DNA of 35,449 bases from Peptococcaceae bacterium (GTDB lineage: Bacteria; Bacillota; Dehalobacteriia; UBA4068; UBA4997): positions 1 through 35,449 of the forward strand of contig JAAWKH010000020.1 in assembly GCA_022797295.1 (NCBI GenBank), read 5' to 3'. This document shows positions 6,692-28,978 of the stretch, one piece after another. Within the stretch, counting starts at the first letter, position 1. Each line of letters opens with the position of its first letter. The position numbers and the translations under genes were made by a program. The notes beneath the pieces were generated by a model that saw only the letters and a program-made list of their open reading frames with translations, searched no databases and was not told the origin of the DNA.

Positions 6692-7252
6692 TTACATATT
6701 AATCTGACCGCCAGTCTGCGGCTCATCTTCAGGTTTATCCTCAGGCTTAATTTCCGGCAAATCGTCAACCTCCGGCAGCTCGTCCCAATTACTCATTGAT
6801 ATGTCTATATCCTCAACCCCGCTCAGCGTCAACTTAAATTGCAAAACCGCGCCGTTTTCGCTTCGCCACTCCAAACGGCTCTGCCCCTCCGGCAATGTTA
6901 GACCGATGTTAAAAGTATGTGGCATATTTATACCTGTCTTGTAAGTAGTTCCCGCCACAGGATATTCGGCGCCATCCTCGCCAACGCGGTATAACATTAT
7001 ATCTCCATCGCAGCTTTCCAGCTTCAGTTCAAATCCCAATCCGGTTTCCGCCGCCGTATTAATGTATAGCAGCGACAAAACATCATCAACGTGCGCTTCC
7101 GCCGTCACAATATAGCTGTCCGGCTGGCTGCCGTCGCTGATAAATTCATTATAGTAATTGCCGGCTTCACCATGGGCAAATTTATCGCTCTGCTCAGCGC
7201 AGCCCGCCAAAAGCAAGCACATAACCGCCAACAACAATACTGATTTTCTCAT
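6692..7252 (-). CDS. Putative lipoprotein of unknown function
   Basis: 186 residues with a lipoprotein signal peptide (MRKSVLLLAVMCLLLAGC, lipid-modified C18), so probably anchored to the outer face of the membrane. The rest appears mostly beta (for example VTAEAHVDDVLSLLYIN and FNIGLTLPEGQSRLEW) and could form one compact sandwich. The C-terminus is Pro/Glu/Asp rich (KPEDKPEDEPQTGG). It lies 21 bases upstream of thiC on the same strand and the two are probably co-transcribed. This may be positional only, as no thiamine-binding family was recognised. The ribosome binding site is GGGGTGAT. Confidence 0.7.
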   Translation of the reverse strand: MRKSVLLLAVMCLLLAGCAEQSDKFAHGEAGNYYNEFISDGSQPDSYIVTAEAHVDDVLSLLYINTAAETGLGFELKLESCDGDIMLYRVGEDGAEYPVAGTTYKTGINMPHTFNIGLTLPEGQSRLEWRSENGAVLQFKLTLSGVEDIDISMSNWDELPEVDDLPEIKPEDKPEDEPQTGGQINM

Positions 7253-7280
7253 ACCATCACCCCTATATTATCCTAAGCAT

Positions 7281-7405
7281 AAAGAGCTGCAAGAGTGGTG
7301 CAGATGTGAGGAGTCAGCTTGTGAGAGGAGGCAGGCGTACTAATAGTACGCCGACGACTTGAACAAGCCGACGACAAAACAGATGCGCTGCTATTGCAGC
7401 TCTTT
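7281..7405. repeat. 125-bp imperfect palindromic element
   Basis: Outer arms AAAGAGCTGCAA (7281-7292) and TTGCAGCTCTTT (7394-7405) are perfect inverted repeats. Inner arms GGCGTACTA (7334-7342) and TAGTACGCC (7344-7352) have exactly the same centre, base 7343. An intermediate pair, GTCAGCTTGT (7313-7322) and ACAAGCCGAC (7363-7372), pairs with one mismatch and a one-base offset. Either strand would fold into one long interrupted hairpin. The right arm encodes the last four residues and the stop codon of the radical SAM gene. It resembles a MITE or REP-type element; no second copy was seen in the window. Confidence 0.75.
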
Positions 7406-8305
7406 CGGCAAACGCAGCTTCAATCCGGCCAATATCGTGTCCGGCTTAAAAGTAAACACACTCCTCATCTCCCCCGCCATACAAAAACCGCACTGGTCGC
7501 AAACGCCAGCTTGCTTGCCAGGGCATTCCGGCAGCCGGGCGCCGTCCGCCAGAATAAAATTGCTCACCCAGCAGTCCTTGGGAAATTGGTTATGCCGCAT
7601 AAGCTTCAAGCCGGAAATGCTGTTCATAATCGGATAATCCCGCCGCTTATAATCAATGATTTGGTCAATCAGCTGTTGGCGCACCTCCCAGGCCAACGCC
7701 ATATGCTCCGTGCCAGGATAGGGCGTGTGGAAATTCAGGGAAATCTGCCGAATATACGGGCTGGCCTTGGCATATTCAATGGTTTCCGCCACAGCCGGAT
7801 AATTCAAAGCGTTGATTGCCATATTAACACTAAGGTTAGGGTGGCCGCAACCGGCCAGGTTTTCCTCCAGCCGGGCGAAAGCGCCCTCGCCACGAATTTT
7901 GTCATGCCAATGGCCCACGCCATCCAGGCTGACCCAAACGGAATCTGCCCGCAGCCCGGCAAAAGGCCGTTGAGCGTTAGTGGTCACGGTGGCGGAGTAA
8001 AAGCCCAGCTGACGGCTCAAATCCAGCAGGTCGTTCAAATCGCGGCCTTGCTCGTCCCGCCAAAGGGTGGGCTCGCCGCCCTCAAAATCCACAAAACGCG
8101 CGCCCAAACGGTGGGAATATTCCAGCTCCTCTTTAATTTGCTGCCAGCTTTTGCTGATACCGCCAGCGTGAGTGCCCTCAGCACAATGCGCACAACGTAA
8201 ATTACAAATATTGGAAACAAAAAGCACCGTCTGCAAAGGCCGCTTTTGGCCTAAAATGCGGGCCCTAAAAAACCACCAGGGCAGATAAAATAATTGCTTT
8301 AGCAT
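7391..8305 (-). CDS. Radical SAM enzyme of unknown substrate with C-terminal cysteine cluster
   Basis: 304 residues. The canonical radical SAM motif CNLRCAHC gives C34, C38 and C41 for the SAM-binding [4Fe-4S] cluster. A GGEPTLW motif and an SLDGVG segment complete the SAM-binding barrel. Near the end, C245 and C261, C269, C272, C275 (ECPGKQAGVCDQCGFC) could hold a second iron-sulfur cluster, as in SPASM-like or twitch-like enzymes, although the spacing is not the classical SPASM one. The N-terminus is hydrophobic (LFYLPWWFF), perhaps for membrane association. It lies 12 bases downstream of the UbiA-family gene and probably acts with it. It does not look like MqnC or MqnE. The last codons are formed by the arm of the 125-bp palindrome. 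Confidence 0.85.
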   Translation of the reverse strand: MLKQLFYLPWWFFRARILGQKRPLQTVLFVSNICNLRCAHCAEGTHAGGISKSWQQIKEELEYSHRLGARFVDFEGGEPTLWRDEQGRDLNDLLDLSRQLGFYSATVTTNAQRPFAGLRADSVWVSLDGVGHWHDKIRGEGAFARLEENLAGCGHPNLSVNMAINALNYPAVAETIEYAKASPYIRQISLNFHTPYPGTEHMALAWEVRQQLIDQIIDYKRRDYPIMNSISGLKLMRHNQFPKDCWVSNFILADGARLPECPGKQAGVCDQCGFCMAGEMRSVFTFKPDTILAGLKLRLPKELQ

Positions 8306-19688: not shown

Positions 19689-20891
19689 TCAAACAATACC
19701 CTGTTCTAACTGGTGAATTTTTTCATTTATATATTGAAGCATTTGGCTTTCATAATTATTTATAACAATCATATTATCTGGCACCATATATTTTTTTCCC
19801 CAATCATATTCATAGGTAATCAAAATCATAAAAACACAATGGCGTTTCAAAGAGGCATTATAAAGTAAATTAACCGCCTGCCCAAAGGTCTCGTCCTTTT
19901 TTTGAATTTTTATTGCCGCAGGCGCTGACAAATAATGTTTTTTGGTCAAAGCATCAATGCCTTTATTTCGCTGCACAATATCACAATCAAATTGTTGTAA
20001 AATATTTAACTCCATATTTGATTTTGTTTTATAAACATCCTCTCCCAAAGCCAGCAATTTTGATTGTGTTTTATATGGCTTCACCAATCTTTGACGACAC
20101 AATTCAACCGCTTCAGGATTAACATCCACACCAATATATTTCCTATTCTGCAACTTGGCGGCCACCAATGCCGTACCACTGCCGCAAAAAGGGTCTAAAA
20201 TAACATCATTTTCATCTGTGCTTATCTTTATAATGCGTTCCAATAACTCAACAGGCTTTTGAGTCGGATAACCGGTTCTTTCCTTAGCCTTGGGATTTAA
20301 AAATGGAATTTCCCAAACATCAGCCAGAGGAACCCCCTTTTTTTCACTGGCTGCCATAATCTCTCCATCAGAGTTTCTCTTATATACAGTTTTACCTTGC
20401 GCACCTCGCTCCCGCATCTGTAATATTTGGTCTATATTGGTTGTAGAAGAATAATCGCCATATAATCTATTAAACTTATATTCGTCGGTTTTTGAATAGA
20501 AAAAGATTGTTTGATGAGCCGGAAGCAAACCTTGTTTGGAATTAGACCATCTTTTATAATACCAAATTATTTCACTCCTAAAATTTTTTTCTCCCCAAAT
20601 ATCATCTAAAAGCATGCGCAGATAATGAGAGGCTGAAGTATCACAATGCAAGAAAATACTACCGCTGCTTTTTAGTACACGCTTAATCTCCAAAAGCCTT
20701 TTTTCCATATACTCAATATATTGCACGCGAGAGGGCCAAACATCTGAAAATTCATACCTTATTCCATTAGCAGAGCTAAGAGAATGTTTTCGCTGTGTAT
20801 AAAATGGCGGGTCTAAATATACCATATCAATAGTTTCGGCAGGAATTTGTTTTAATATATTCAAGCAGTCATCATTAAAAATCTTATTCAT
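19689..20891 (-). CDS. Beta-class site-specific DNA methyltransferase of a type II restriction-modification system
   Basis: 400 residues from the ATG at 20891, one base after the endonuclease stop, with GAGG five bases upstream. The catalytic motif IV DPPF (in MVYLDPPFYTQRK) comes first and the SAM-binding motif I (ILDPFCGSGTALVAA) follows, giving the beta-class order of N6-adenine or N4-cytosine methylases. GYPTQKPVELLERI is motif X. After about residue 265 there is an extra 130-residue domain (GIDAL, AAIKIQKKDETFGQAVNLL) not needed for methylation. AT-rich composition contrasts with the neighbours and indicates transfer. It protects host DNA from the adjoining endonuclease. Confidence 0.9.
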   Translation of the reverse strand: MNKIFNDDCLNILKQIPAETIDMVYLDPPFYTQRKHSLSSANGIRYEFSDVWPSRVQYIEYMEKRLLEIKRVLKSSGSIFLHCDTSASHYLRMLLDDIWGEKNFRSEIIWYYKRWSNSKQGLLPAHQTIFFYSKTDEYKFNRLYGDYSSTTNIDQILQMRERGAQGKTVYKRNSDGEIMAASEKKGVPLADVWEIPFLNPKAKERTGYPTQKPVELLERIIKISTDENDVILDPFCGSGTALVAAKLQNRKYIGVDVNPEAVELCRQRLVKPYKTQSKLLALGEDVYKTKSNMELNILQQFDCDIVQRNKGIDALTKKHYLSAPAAIKIQKKDETFGQAVNLLYNASLKRHCVFMILITYEYDWGKKYMVPDNMIVINNYESQMLQYINEKIHQLEQGIV

Positions 20892-20892
20892 A

Positions 20893-21510
20893 TCAACCTC
20901 GGTCATTAGCAATTTGATATAACATTGACAACAAATCCACCCCAGCGAAATCCTTAACATATGCCCAAGCAGCATCTCCGTAATAATAAAAGCCGCCAAT
21001 ACCAGCATAAATTGTTTGTAAAGTTTCCTGAATCCTTCTGGCCTGTTTCCTTTGTGGATAGTAAAACATTAATCTAACAGGCGTGTAACCAGCCTGTTTT
21101 ACAGCCTGAACCCTTGTATGCTCCTTGGTAATATGATCGCCGTCAGTAGTGGCATCTCGCCATTTAATTTCATGCGCAAGCTTCCCAACCAGACAATCTA
21201 TCTCAAAGGTTTTAGGACGGCTTCCCAGCATATTGGGAATTCTAATTTTGCTCGAATCAGGAAACCTACATTTTATACAAGTAAAAACTGCGTCCTCTAA
21301 AAATGCACCCGCATATTTATATAGGAAACGTCCCTTATTCTGATAAATATCAATAAGCTTTCCCTCTTTATCAGAAACACCTAAAACCCTATATATTAAA
21401 TAATGTGCATTATCATCATTTTCCATTTCTGCAATCCGCAAATCAACCTGCTTTTGTAAATTAAAAGCATATCCATCCGCAATTTCTTTGATTAAATTAT
21501 ATAATTCCAT
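20893..21510 (-). CDS. ApaLI-like type II restriction endonuclease
   Basis: 205 residues, AT-rich gene. The central block EIDCLVGKLAHEIKWRDATTDGDHITKEH contains a PD-(D/E)XK-type active site (E/D, then E-x-K). Together with the following LMFYYPQRKQARRIQETL and GFYYYGDAAW segments it recalls the ApaLI-like endonuclease family (recognition GTGCAC in the type enzyme). That assignment and any recognition site are inferred from memory of the family. It is directly followed by the methyltransferase gene, and AGAGG precedes its ATG. No controller (C) protein gene is seen. It lies 23 bases downstream of uvrA and could be transcribed from it. Confidence 0.78.
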   Translation of the reverse strand: MELYNLIKEIADGYAFNLQKQVDLRIAEMENDDNAHYLIYRVLGVSDKEGKLIDIYQNKGRFLYKYAGAFLEDAVFTCIKCRFPDSSKIRIPNMLGSRPKTFEIDCLVGKLAHEIKWRDATTDGDHITKEHTRVQAVKQAGYTPVRLMFYYPQRKQARRIQETLQTIYAGIGGFYYYGDAAWAYVKDFAGVDLLSMLYQIANDRG

Positions 21511-26003: not shown

Positions 26004-26717
26004 TTATGTTTGTTCCAACGCCACCACCCGCAAAACCTCGCCCTGCACCTGAAAGCGCACATTGAAGCCGGCAAAGCTCAGCCCGTAAGTACGCACCTCC
26101 TGCCGGCCAGCGTGATAAGCCGGGCGTGGGTCCTCGGCCAGCACCGCCAGCAAAGCCGGCCTTTTGTCAGGCGGCAGTTGGGCTAGCAGCTCCGGCGCAA
26201 TCTGCACCTGCAAACGGCGGGCCTGCTCCGGCGGCACGGCAAAACCGCCCTGCGCCTGCGGCCGCGCGTCGGCGTAAGGCACGTAAGGCTTAATATCCAG
26301 CAGCGGCGTGCCGTTCAAAACGTCGGCCCCGGCCACCAGCAAAACCGGGCCGTCCTCCTCCTGGGCAATCTCCAGCAAGCGCACAGCAGAAAGGCCAATC
26401 GGGTTGGGGCGGTTGGGGCTGCGGCTGGCAAACACGCCCACCCGCTGATTGCCGCCCAAACGCGGCGGCCGCACCGTTGGCTGCCACTCCCGCTCTCCTG
26501 CCTCACCGCTGGCAAATCCCTCGGAAAACAGCCAAAGCAGCCAAACGTGGGAAAAGCCAGTCAGCCCGCGGAAAGCCTCCGCCCGCCGAAACTCCGGCAG
26601 CAGCACCACGCGGGAGATAACCTCCTCCACCAGGCCGCTTTGCCGGGGCACGCCGAACTTGCCGCCGTAATCGTTGTAAATGTGGCCGATAATCTGCAAT
26701 TTCAATTCATTTTCCAT
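26004..26717 (-). CDS. trmO: tRNA (N6-threonylcarbamoyladenosine(37)-N6)-methyltransferase TrmO
   Basis: 237 residues. TrmO (formerly TsaA/YaeB) adds a methyl group to t6A37 of threonine tRNAs. The N-terminal domain has IGHIYNDYGGKFGVPRQSG, then EFRRAEAFRGLTGFSHVWLLWLF and the family signature GVFASRSPNRPNPIGLSAVRLLEI, followed by DVLNGTPLLDIKPYVPYAD. The C-terminal domain (about 160-237) has AYHAGRQEVRTYGLSFAGFNVRF. Its ATG lies three bases after the stop of a lipoprotein gene. A truncated near-identical copy of its first third lies at 27573-27783. Confidence 0.95.
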   Translation of the reverse strand: MENELKLQIIGHIYNDYGGKFGVPRQSGLVEEVISRVVLLPEFRRAEAFRGLTGFSHVWLLWLFSEGFASGEAGEREWQPTVRPPRLGGNQRVGVFASRSPNRPNPIGLSAVRLLEIAQEEDGPVLLVAGADVLNGTPLLDIKPYVPYADARPQAQGGFAVPPEQARRLQVQIAPELLAQLPPDKRPALLAVLAEDPRPAYHAGRQEVRTYGLSFAGFNVRFQVQGEVLRVVALEQT

Positions 26718-26720
26718 TAT

Positions 26721-27356
26721 CTACAAACTTTCCATAACTTTATACAGCAGCGACAGCAAATCATCTTCCACCAGCTCGTCATGATATTTCTCCACCAGGC
26801 CTTTTATATATTCATTATAGGCCTTATAGGTTTCCTCCTTATGATGTTCTTCCTCCGGAAAATCCGCCATAAAATTATCACGCAAGGCAATTTCTGCATT
26901 TATAACCTGACTGTTAAAAGCAAGATAGTCCAGATAATCCTCCTCTGTCATATGAGTGCGTTCCAGATAATCCTGCGTCCAATCCCAAATGCTCTGCCCA
27001 TTTTCAGCCTTCTGGCTGCTGTCCGGCAAACCGGCATAATATTCCTCCGCCCATTGCCTGCTGTCTGCCCAGGAAAGCGCCAGTCCCTGCCCTTCCGCCT
27101 CCAACAGTTCCGCGCGCATAACTGCCAGCACCGGCAACACATCTTCCGGCGCAATCTCCAAAGGCTTGCCCGCCTCGTCAACTTCTGCAAGTCTGACAAT
27201 CAGGCAATCCAGATCCGCCTGACGGATTCGCTCACCCTGCATAAATTTAGTATCATCACCTGCCCGCAACGCATTCCCATCTGCAGCGCAAGCGGCAAAC
27301 GTCGCCAGCATTAAAATTGCCAGCAGCGCCGTCCAAATCCTCTGCCAAATTTTCAT
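26721..27356 (-). CDS. Lipoprotein with one SurA-N-like helical domain
   Basis: 211 residues from the ATG at 27356 (GGGAG eight bases upstream). Lipoprotein signal peptide ending FAAC (C23). The mature part is helical: IRQADLDCLIVRL, LLEAEGQGLALSWADSRQWAEEYYAGL, HMTEEDYLDYLAFNSQVINAEIALRDNF and IKGLVEKYHDELVEDD. This pattern matches the N-terminal chaperone part of SurA/PrsA-type proteins, and no rotamase domain is present. Each block corresponds to a block in both halves of the 401-residue lipoprotein at 27773-28978, so the two genes are paralogues produced by local duplication. It may assist folding or binding of exported proteins. Confidence 0.75.
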   Translation of the reverse strand: MKIWQRIWTALLAILMLATFAACAADGNALRAGDDTKFMQGERIRQADLDCLIVRLAEVDEAGKPLEIAPEDVLPVLAVMRAELLEAEGQGLALSWADSRQWAEEYYAGLPDSSQKAENGQSIWDWTQDYLERTHMTEEDYLDYLAFNSQVINAEIALRDNFMADFPEEEHHKEETYKAYNEYIKGLVEKYHDELVEDDLLSLLYKVMESL

Positions 27357-27385
27357 TATATCAGCTCCCATTATCTAAGCTTCCA

Positions 27386-27565
<180 letters not shown>

Positions 27566-27572
27566 CCGCTAG

Positions 27573-27783
27573 CGCTGGCAAATCCCTCGGAAAACAGCCA
27601 AAGCAGCCAAACGTGGGAAAAACCAGCCAGCCCGCGGAAAGCCTCCGCCCGCCGAAACTCCGGCAGCAGCACCACGCGGGAGATAACCTCCTCCACCAGG
27701 CCGCTTTGCCGGGGCACACCGAACTTGCCGCCGTAATCGTTGTAAATGCGGCCGATAATCTGCAGAGAAATCTTATTGTCCAT
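27573..27783 (-). pseudogene. trmO 5'-end fragment (truncated TrmO)
   Basis: Starting at ATG 27783, overlapping the end of the upstream lipoprotein gene. It encodes MDNKISLQIIGRIYNDYGG and continues nearly identically to TrmO through FSHVWLLWLFSEGFA (about 70 residues). It then crosses into the eno fragment out of frame and stops at 27523. The SAM-binding signature (SRSPNRPNPIG) and C-terminal domain are missing, so it cannot be an active methyltransferase. Confidence 0.93.
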
Positions 27784-28978
27784 AACCAATCGTCACTTCA
27801 CCCGTCAAATTTTCCGCCAAAAACTGGATCTGTTCCGCGCTCAACAGCTGCGGCTGATACTGCGCCACCAACTCCTCAAAATGCTCGCTCCAGGCTTTTG
27901 TCCGCGCCAAATCATCCGCCAGCACCGCCTGCGGCAAATCGGCCTCAAATTGGGCCTGCAAAGCCTGGCCGGCCTCCTGAATTTGCCGGGAACAAGCGTT
28001 GTTGGTCAAAAGCTCCTCCTCCGTCCAGCCCATATTCTGCCGATATTCCTGCCAAAAATCCCACATCTGCTGCGCCTGCTCCCGCTCCAGGCTTTCCGGC
28101 CCGCCGATTGCCAGCTGCACCTCGTGGTAACGGTCTTCCGCCTTAACTCTGGCAGCGGCAAAATCCGGCAGCAAATCCAACCGCTCGGCCTCCAGGTAAA
28201 TCACCCGTATCCGCAAAAGAGCGTCCAAAACACCGGCCTCCGTAATCGCGTCCGCGGACGCGCCCGGCGTGGCAATCGCAACCTGCCGCGCGTAATCCAC
28301 ATCAGCCTGCGTAATCGGCTGGCCGGCGTTTTTGGCGGCAAAAACCTCCAGACCAGAAACCGCCGGCGGGTTGTCATACAAAGCCGCCATTTCCTCATCC
28401 AGCAGTTGGTCGCGATATTTTTCTACCAAATCTTTCAAATGCTCGGCCGCCGCTGCGTCGGCAATGAGCGTGTCCGCCTGCTCATAAACCGACAAACCGG
28501 CCACAAAATTTTCAATCACCGCCGACTTCGCCATCATAACCTGCTGCGCCTTAGCGGCTTCCTCCAGATATTCCTCTTTTTCCAAACCCATATACTGCAT
28601 GTAATCCTGCAAAGCCTGCCAGGCCTCCTGCGCTCCATGCACGTTCTGTGAATCTGACGACGCATACAGCTCCAAAAACTGATTGTAGTTTTCCTGCGCC
28701 TGCTGCCGCGCCTCCTCCAGGGAGGGCGCTATCCCCAGGCTTTCCGCCTCCAGCAAAACAGCCCGCTCCTCCAGCAAAGCGGTCAGCGCCTCGGCCTGCG
28801 TAACCGTTTCATCTTTAAAGCGCATACTTTGCCAAACCCAATCCAGCTCAGCCTGCGTAATCTTCTCCCCGGCCTCCGCGGGGCCGGCCGCCTGCTCATC
28901 ATTCGCGCAGGCGGCAAGCGCCGCCAGCAGCATAAATACCGCCAGCAGCGCCGCCAATCTTCTATACCAAATCTGCAT
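27773..28978 (-). CDS. Lipoprotein with two tandem SurA-N-like helical domains
   Basis: 401 residues. Lipoprotein signal peptide ending LAAC (C24). The mature protein is an internal duplication. Repeat 1 (about 37-205) has ITQAELD, LLEAESLGIAPSLEEAR, GLEKEEYLEEAAKAQ and LKDLVEKYRDQLLDEE. Repeat 2 (about 220-390) has ITQADVD, YLEAERLDLLPDFAAAR, GWTEEELLTNNACSR and FEELVAQYQPQLLSAE. Each repeat resembles the N-terminal helical part of SurA/PrsA-like folding factors; there is no parvulin domain. It starts 14 bases after the eno stop and is likely cotranscribed with the glycolytic genes. The shorter paralogue lies at 26721-27356. Confidence 0.78.
   Translation of the reverse strand: MQIWYRRLAALLAVFMLLAALAACANDEQAAGPAEAGEKITQAELDWVWQSMRFKDETVTQAEALTALLEERAVLLEAESLGIAPSLEEARQQAQENYNQFLELYASSDSQNVHGAQEAWQALQDYMQYMGLEKEEYLEEAAKAQQVMMAKSAVIENFVAGLSVYEQADTLIADAAAAEHLKDLVEKYRDQLLDEEMAALYDNPPAVSGLEVFAAKNAGQPITQADVDYARQVAIATPGASADAITEAGVLDALLRIRVIYLEAERLDLLPDFAAARVKAEDRYHEVQLAIGGPESLEREQAQQMWDFWQEYRQNMGWTEEELLTNNACSRQIQEAGQALQAQFEADLPQAVLADDLARTKAWSEHFEELVAQYQPQLLSAEQIQFLAENLTGEVTIGYGQ

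Follow-up and report, generated by a model that had tools for sequence, protein, structure and literature searches.

REPs are palindromes, 20-40 bp in length, that carry a GTAG or CGTC tag, of which the GTAG type occurs with RAYT genes; they lie preferentially downstream of genes, and some RAYT-like genes are flanked by long TIRs (PMC3733652). Bacterial MITEs such as ERIC, NEMIS, RUP and Nezha are 70-300 bp long, non-coding, foldable from end to end, located beside genes and mobilised in trans (PMC3733652). In Geobacter, predicted short RNAs form a multicopy family that is intergenic and lies within operons, for instance between dapAB and dapL; in the part of that report considered here, the family is common to two species at one site and is also reported in Desulfotalea (PMC2700814).

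The hairpin analysed here lies at 7281-7405 of the window, i.e., the whole stretch of 35,449 nt under study, which comes from a MAG with an assembly of 1.91 Mb (G000). With a probability of roughly 0.6, it belongs to a family of non-autonomous, hairpin-forming and interspersed repeats of ~105-130 bp that are REP/MITE-like, were moved in trans and were later constrained in place. The family has not previously been named and is best read as new. A literature search with the core sequence strings returned chance matches only. The features of the locus are as follows.

7281..7405, plus strand: complete hairpin element, from a covariance model match at 7279-7406 (130.8 bits), the fold, the repeat family and covariation
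7281..7307, plus strand: left outer and second stem, AAAGAGCTGCAAGAGTGGTGCAGATGT, pairing with 7379-7405
7308..7333, plus strand: left inner arm with GA motifs (GAGGAGTCAGCTTGTGAGAGGAGGCA), facing 7353-7378, with GA opposite GA in internal loops across copies
7334..7352, plus strand: apical hairpin GGCGTACT-AAT-AGTACGCC, then GACGAC; the most conserved core, found in other phyla too
7353..7378, plus strand: right inner arm with GACGAC motifs (GACGACTTGAACAAGCCGACGACAAA), facing 7308-7333
7379..7405, plus strand: right outer and second stem, ACAGATGCGCTGCTATTGCAGCTCTTT, with K-E-L-Q-TAG of the radical SAM gene read from its complement
7391..8305, minus strand: radical SAM gene (PF04055), its 3' end overlapping the element, with the stop TAG at 7391-7393
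6692..7252, minus strand: predicted lipoprotein gene without a Pfam family, co-directional and downstream, starting 28 bp past the element

Like REPs, the element is palindromic, interspersed and mainly found downstream of coding regions, its presence or absence differs between relatives, and a folded single-strand intermediate, which is suspected for REPs, is likewise proposed for it (PMC3733652). Unlike REPs, it is ~125 bp long (about four times the REP length), contains GA/GA loops and has no RAYT association (PMC3733652), and no terminal GTAG or CGTC tag is present in an alignment of 17 good copies. By length, tag and RAYT, the element is therefore not a REP in the defined sense, a class that the original prediction had offered. 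It resembles bacterial MITEs in being 70-300 bp long, non-coding, foldable from end to end and situated beside genes, and mobilisation in trans, as for MITEs, is proposed for it (PMC3733652). Unlike MITEs, it has no constant 15-30 bp terminal repeat, its outer arms vary, no consistent target duplication is seen by eye, and no parent insertion sequence was found for it. The alternative class of the original prediction, a MITE, thus holds for size (within 70-300 bp), non-coding character, interspersion and absence from orthologous sites, but no constant terminal inverted repeat corresponds to a transposase of the carriers, and membership is not supported. With IS200/IS605, the element shares DNA that folds in one particular strand and an orientation bias with respect to replication; it differs in lacking tnpA and in having its folding strand on C-rich (leading-template) sequence. 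On palindrome and habit alone, as given in the part of the report considered here, the central palindrome GRCGTAGCGCTGCTACGCC of the Geobacter family resembles the GRCGTA-n-TACGYC apex of the element (PMC2700814).

The nested palindrome of 125 bp that had been predicted is confirmed. The outer arms (7281-7307 and 7379-7405, 78% complementary), the middle stems and the apical hairpin share base 7343 as their centre, the arms nest, and pairing runs along nearly the whole length so that the sequence folds end to end. Folded as RNA, the plus strand has an MFE of -73.6 kcal/mol vs. a mean of -38.1 for shuffled sequences (z = -10.6; 0 of 200 shuffles), while that of the minus strand is -55.9 kcal/mol (z = -6.5); with DNA folding parameters, the values are -34.7 and -27.9, respectively. 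Two features, the recurrent internal loops with GA opposite GA and the strand asymmetry of folding, go beyond what had been noticed before. A scan of the 35,449-nt window found this single copy and no other convincing match.

Reading of the radical SAM ORF, which ends in ...LPKELQ*, bears out that the final K-E-L-Q and the TAG come from the right arm of the element. Orthologs without the element end in LPN* or LPGR*, i.e., one to two codons past LP. In three relatives (G006, G001 and G007), radical SAM orthologs that are 85-96% identical have no hairpin and run straight into the next gene, the site being empty even in G006, whose protein is 96% identical. Since the site is empty in the three nearest relatives, comparison of the sequences shows that the element was gained at the radical SAM gene in the lineage of the window, where it now provides the last residues and the TAG stop, as the earlier suggestion of an insertion at or near the gene end had it. 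The copy occupies the position expected for the ancestral stop, which it replaces, the exact junction having been read by eye from the alignment. Most copies carry a conserved CTATTG in the right arm (7390-7396 in the window), whose complement, CAATAG, contains a ready TAG. This TAG is the gene stop in ~7 copies from different species, and a stop lies ~16 bases inside the element in seven genus copies, as in the window.

The genus set comprised nine genomes (G000-G008), with G009 representing another genus of the family. A blastn search with a 135-bp query found copies in seven of these nine genomes, with eight further matches in G000, including one to the same palindrome read from its other strand. 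A covariance model built from the alignment of the 17 copies matched 14 sites in G000, 1 in G001, 19 in G002, 3 in G004, 15 in G005, 14 in G006, 4 in G007 and 8 in G008, some matches being one palindrome counted on the opposite strand; seven of the eight sister species thus carry 1-19 matches, and none were found in G003 and G009. These searches substantiate the multicopy and interspersed nature of the palindrome that had been predicted. A gene-specific, single-copy structure conserved with its gene, named at the outset as the outcome that would speak against a mobile element, is ruled out by the further copies and the empty sites of the relatives. At the purC-purB junction, a full-length element is present in G006, G007, G002 and G005, an internally deleted remnant with its outer stem left in G001, and a short scar of near-precise loss in G000, while G004 and G009 have no element. 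These states indicate that copies can persist across species and that loss occurs via deletion within the palindrome. Comparison by eye of filled and empty sites at the radical SAM and purC genes revealed no shared target duplication, clean empty sites being few. In G005, tandem copies in one orientation with a spacing of ~140 bp occur at the purC end and elsewhere (L137, L138 and L218), which we read as the hairpin having been amplified locally. Six loci (L106, L107, L108, L118, L119 and L120) hold a second subfamily, TGTTGATAAATGCTCAGATTTG...CAAAGATGGGCGTTTAGCGACA, that has the most extreme strand asymmetry, with folds of about -54 to -67 kcal/mol for the plus strand and about -25 to -34 kcal/mol for the minus strand.

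Standard pairs fill 95.4% of the paired cells of the 17-copy alignment vs. 81.4% in shuffles, and 28 of 41 pairs have changes on both sides vs. 15.1 in shuffles; none of 500 shuffles matched the real alignment on any measure, and sliding the partner by 1-3 columns lowers pairing to 26-47%. The sequence of the outer arms differs between copies with compensatory changes, and internal loops with GA opposite GA occur regularly along the stem across copies. On the plus strand, there are 77 G.U vs. 13 A.C in this alignment and 228 vs. 44 in a larger set that includes some distant copies. Among eight pairs of putatively orthologous copies, 25 single changes retain pairing only via G.U on the plus strand and three only via A.C, while pairing survives 19 double changes and is lost at 15 positions; these counts represent non-independent events, and one pair (L113/L149) was matched by the length of the neighbouring gene alone. 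Since a G.U pair reads as A.C on the opposite strand, the asymmetry points to the plus strand as the folding strand, and the plus-strand fold is also more stable than that of the minus strand in nearly all genus copies. At orthologous sites, the changes show that folding of the plus strand is maintained by compensatory change. Even in the absence of selection, compensatory changes can arise by template switching at quasipalindromes during replication (PMC8794818). Acting alone, this process would tend to remove the GA/GA loops, yet the loops persist, and it would not obviously explain the excess of G.U either.

Beyond the genus, 13 of 35 genomes matched in a scan at the order level, and a scan of 398 genomes of the phylum found matches at E <= 1e-4 in 33 genomes from 22 of 266 genera. 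The best E outside the genus is about 1e-12, all E-values being rough as the covariance model was only shortly calibrated. The phylum matches share the apical G[GT]CGTA-n-TACG[CT][CT]GA and long arms; one of them (L179) is clearly a mere fragment. A scan with the core pattern identified loci in two MAGs of other phyla, behind pgk in Bdellovibrio and between atpG and atpD in Candidatus Omnitrophota. Both lie within long hairpins in the same orientation to the gene and reach 42 and 50 bits under the covariance model, although part of these scores is built in by the choice of the loci through the core motif. No viral contig had the core pattern and no plasmid matched, which speaks against carriage by phages or plasmids. 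Membership of a known RNA family was rejected, as nothing in Rfam was matched at the gathering score and a relaxed threshold gave chance-level matches alone.

The genus copies most often begin on or beside the stop codon of the upstream gene and in one preferred orientation. A minus-strand stop codon is found within 20 bp, and commonly within 5 bp, of the right end of the element in 33 of 61 genus copies, while the mirror arrangement, with a plus-strand stop at the left end, is found in eight; both counts rest on crude ORF calls. By eye from their C-termini, the neighbouring genes include tuf, flagellin, purC and groEL-like genes, with pgk and atpG outside the genus. The plus strand has a negative GC skew over ~20 kb in 38 of 43 genus loci and is hence the C-rich strand of replication. 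Gene direction and skew are largely confounded in the genus; among sites with oppositely directed neighbouring genes, two (uvrB-like and serC-like) still follow the skew and one does not. Outside the genus, the bias is 26:16 and not significant, so that a fixed orientation is not supported as a phylum-wide rule. In bacteria, the G-rich strand is usually the leading strand, and IS608 targets the lagging-strand template. If G-rich sequence marks the leading strand here, the plus strand would be the leading-strand template, opposite to insertion of the IS608 type.

Several other explanations would account for part of these results. The plus strand could be a structured or small RNA, antisense to the upstream gene at this locus, in which the GA/GA loops serve as protein-binding or folding motifs. 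The tolerance of G.U far above A.C is more natural for RNA than for DNA, and the conserved tandem GA loops and the better plus-strand folds fit as well, as does the annotation of the related-looking Geobacter elements as predicted short RNAs in the part of that report considered here (PMC2700814). The plus strand, however, runs antisense to the two genes that flank the element in the window, as it does to the neighbouring gene of most genus copies, Rfam offers no match, and polarity is fixed to replication rather than to a promoter, and we regard this explanation as unlikely. The structured RNA of the original prediction is neither proved nor excluded, the better-folding strand at the window site being antisense to the adjacent gene. 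A still less probable explanation is an intercistronic hairpin that acts in the upstream gene's sense mRNA as a 3' stabiliser, a processing site or an attenuator. Although the copies lie directly behind stop codons and often between co-directional genes, some are retained across species (purC-purB, tuf and flagellin) and the sense strand retains a fold of about -30 to -60 kcal/mol, the constraint is on the other strand (25 vs. 3 changes), the sense strand consistently folds more weakly, and close relatives sharing the operon have lost the element or lack it. An intrinsic terminator would also call for a T-tract, for which only TTT follows the hairpin in the radical SAM sense, and an element of ~127 nt between co-directional genes departs from what is expected of a terminator. 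The earlier idea of a transcript end thus loses its terminator at the level of sequence, given the missing T-tract and the frequent position between co-directional genes.

It is very improbable that the copies are REP or TIR repeats tied to HUH transposases of the RAYT type, which process a folded single strand. The preference of REPs for sites downstream of genes and the long TIRs flanking some RAYT-like genes (PMC3733652) would agree with such a tie, and RAYT-like genes do occur in many carriers outside the genus. Y1_Tnp was searched in the genus, the two genomes of other phyla and 26 carriers of the phylum, and the loci found were then scanned with the element model and a sliding fold. It is absent from G000-G006 and G008, i.e., eight of the nine genus genomes, including that of the window, while G007 has one IS200 fragment. 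No element bounds the RAYT-like or IS200 loci examined, those of the Bdellovibrio and Omnitrophota genomes included, with the exception of L204, and the copies are about four times as long as REPs and carry no GTAG/CGTC tag. The search for a REP-associated transposase, proposed earlier as a check, therefore turned up none in eight genus genomes and, save for L204, none flanking elements elsewhere, by which a REP with RAYT was rejected. At L204, in genome G235, an element copy is found ~480 bp away from an IS200-type transposase locus, and several IS200 copies that are nearly identical occur in that genome. Retrotransposition through a reverse transcriptase of the carriers was rejected too, as RVT_1 is absent from G000, G005, G007 and G008 and sporadic elsewhere; no resident insertion sequence matching the ends of the element was identified.

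For the preferred reading, a family of REP/MITE-like hairpin repeats moved in trans, we propose that the element moves, or moved, as a folded single (plus) strand on which an enzyme provided in trans acts. Insertions directly after a stop codon would survive, sparing coding and ribosome-binding sequence, and some would supply a new stop, as at the radical SAM gene. The folded plus strand would then keep a role in place, or be repeatedly renewed, and could act either as RNA or as single-stranded DNA; loss would occur through deletion inside the palindrome. We infer the steps of this scheme that go past the gain at this site and the constraint on the plus strand. Against the scheme stand the absence of a candidate mobiliser from our searches, the variable outer ends, which are unlike those recognised by transposases, and an orientation bias that is weaker outside the genus and confounded with gene orientation inside it. 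A bolder version, tentative and on balance doubtful, is that of an old, phylum-crossing family of polar hairpins, in which one strand (with a GUAC-type apex and a tandem GA/GA ladder) is kept folded by selection and placed at gene ends with its direction fixed relative to the replication fork. Such a hairpin would be a replication-coupled signal or substrate at the level of DNA, handled by an enzyme, of the host or of a mobile element, that is widely shared. Most descriptions of small palindromic repeats deal with single genomes; here, a covariance model follows one architecture across 22 of 266 sampled genera, and the core-motif search extends it to two other phyla. It combines strand constraint, placement at stop codons and replication-linked orientation without a known mobiliser, and at the window site the C-terminus of a radical SAM enzyme has been rewritten by the element. 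What moves RAYT-less hairpin repeats, and whether repeats gain a function where they have landed, become testable questions.

Other features of the window include a restriction-modification module at 19689-21510 that is inserted among repair genes, between uvrC-like and uvrA-like genes; it pairs the gene of an ApaLI-like restriction endonuclease (PF09499, E = 5e-91) with that of an N6/N4 DNA methyltransferase (PF01555). The region 26004-27789 resembles a tandem duplication in which one copy is decaying: a TrmO-like gene that is complete (26004-26717) and a near-identical but truncated copy of its N-terminal part (27523-27789) lie on either side of one member of an apparent pair of paralogs (26721-27371 and 27773-28978).
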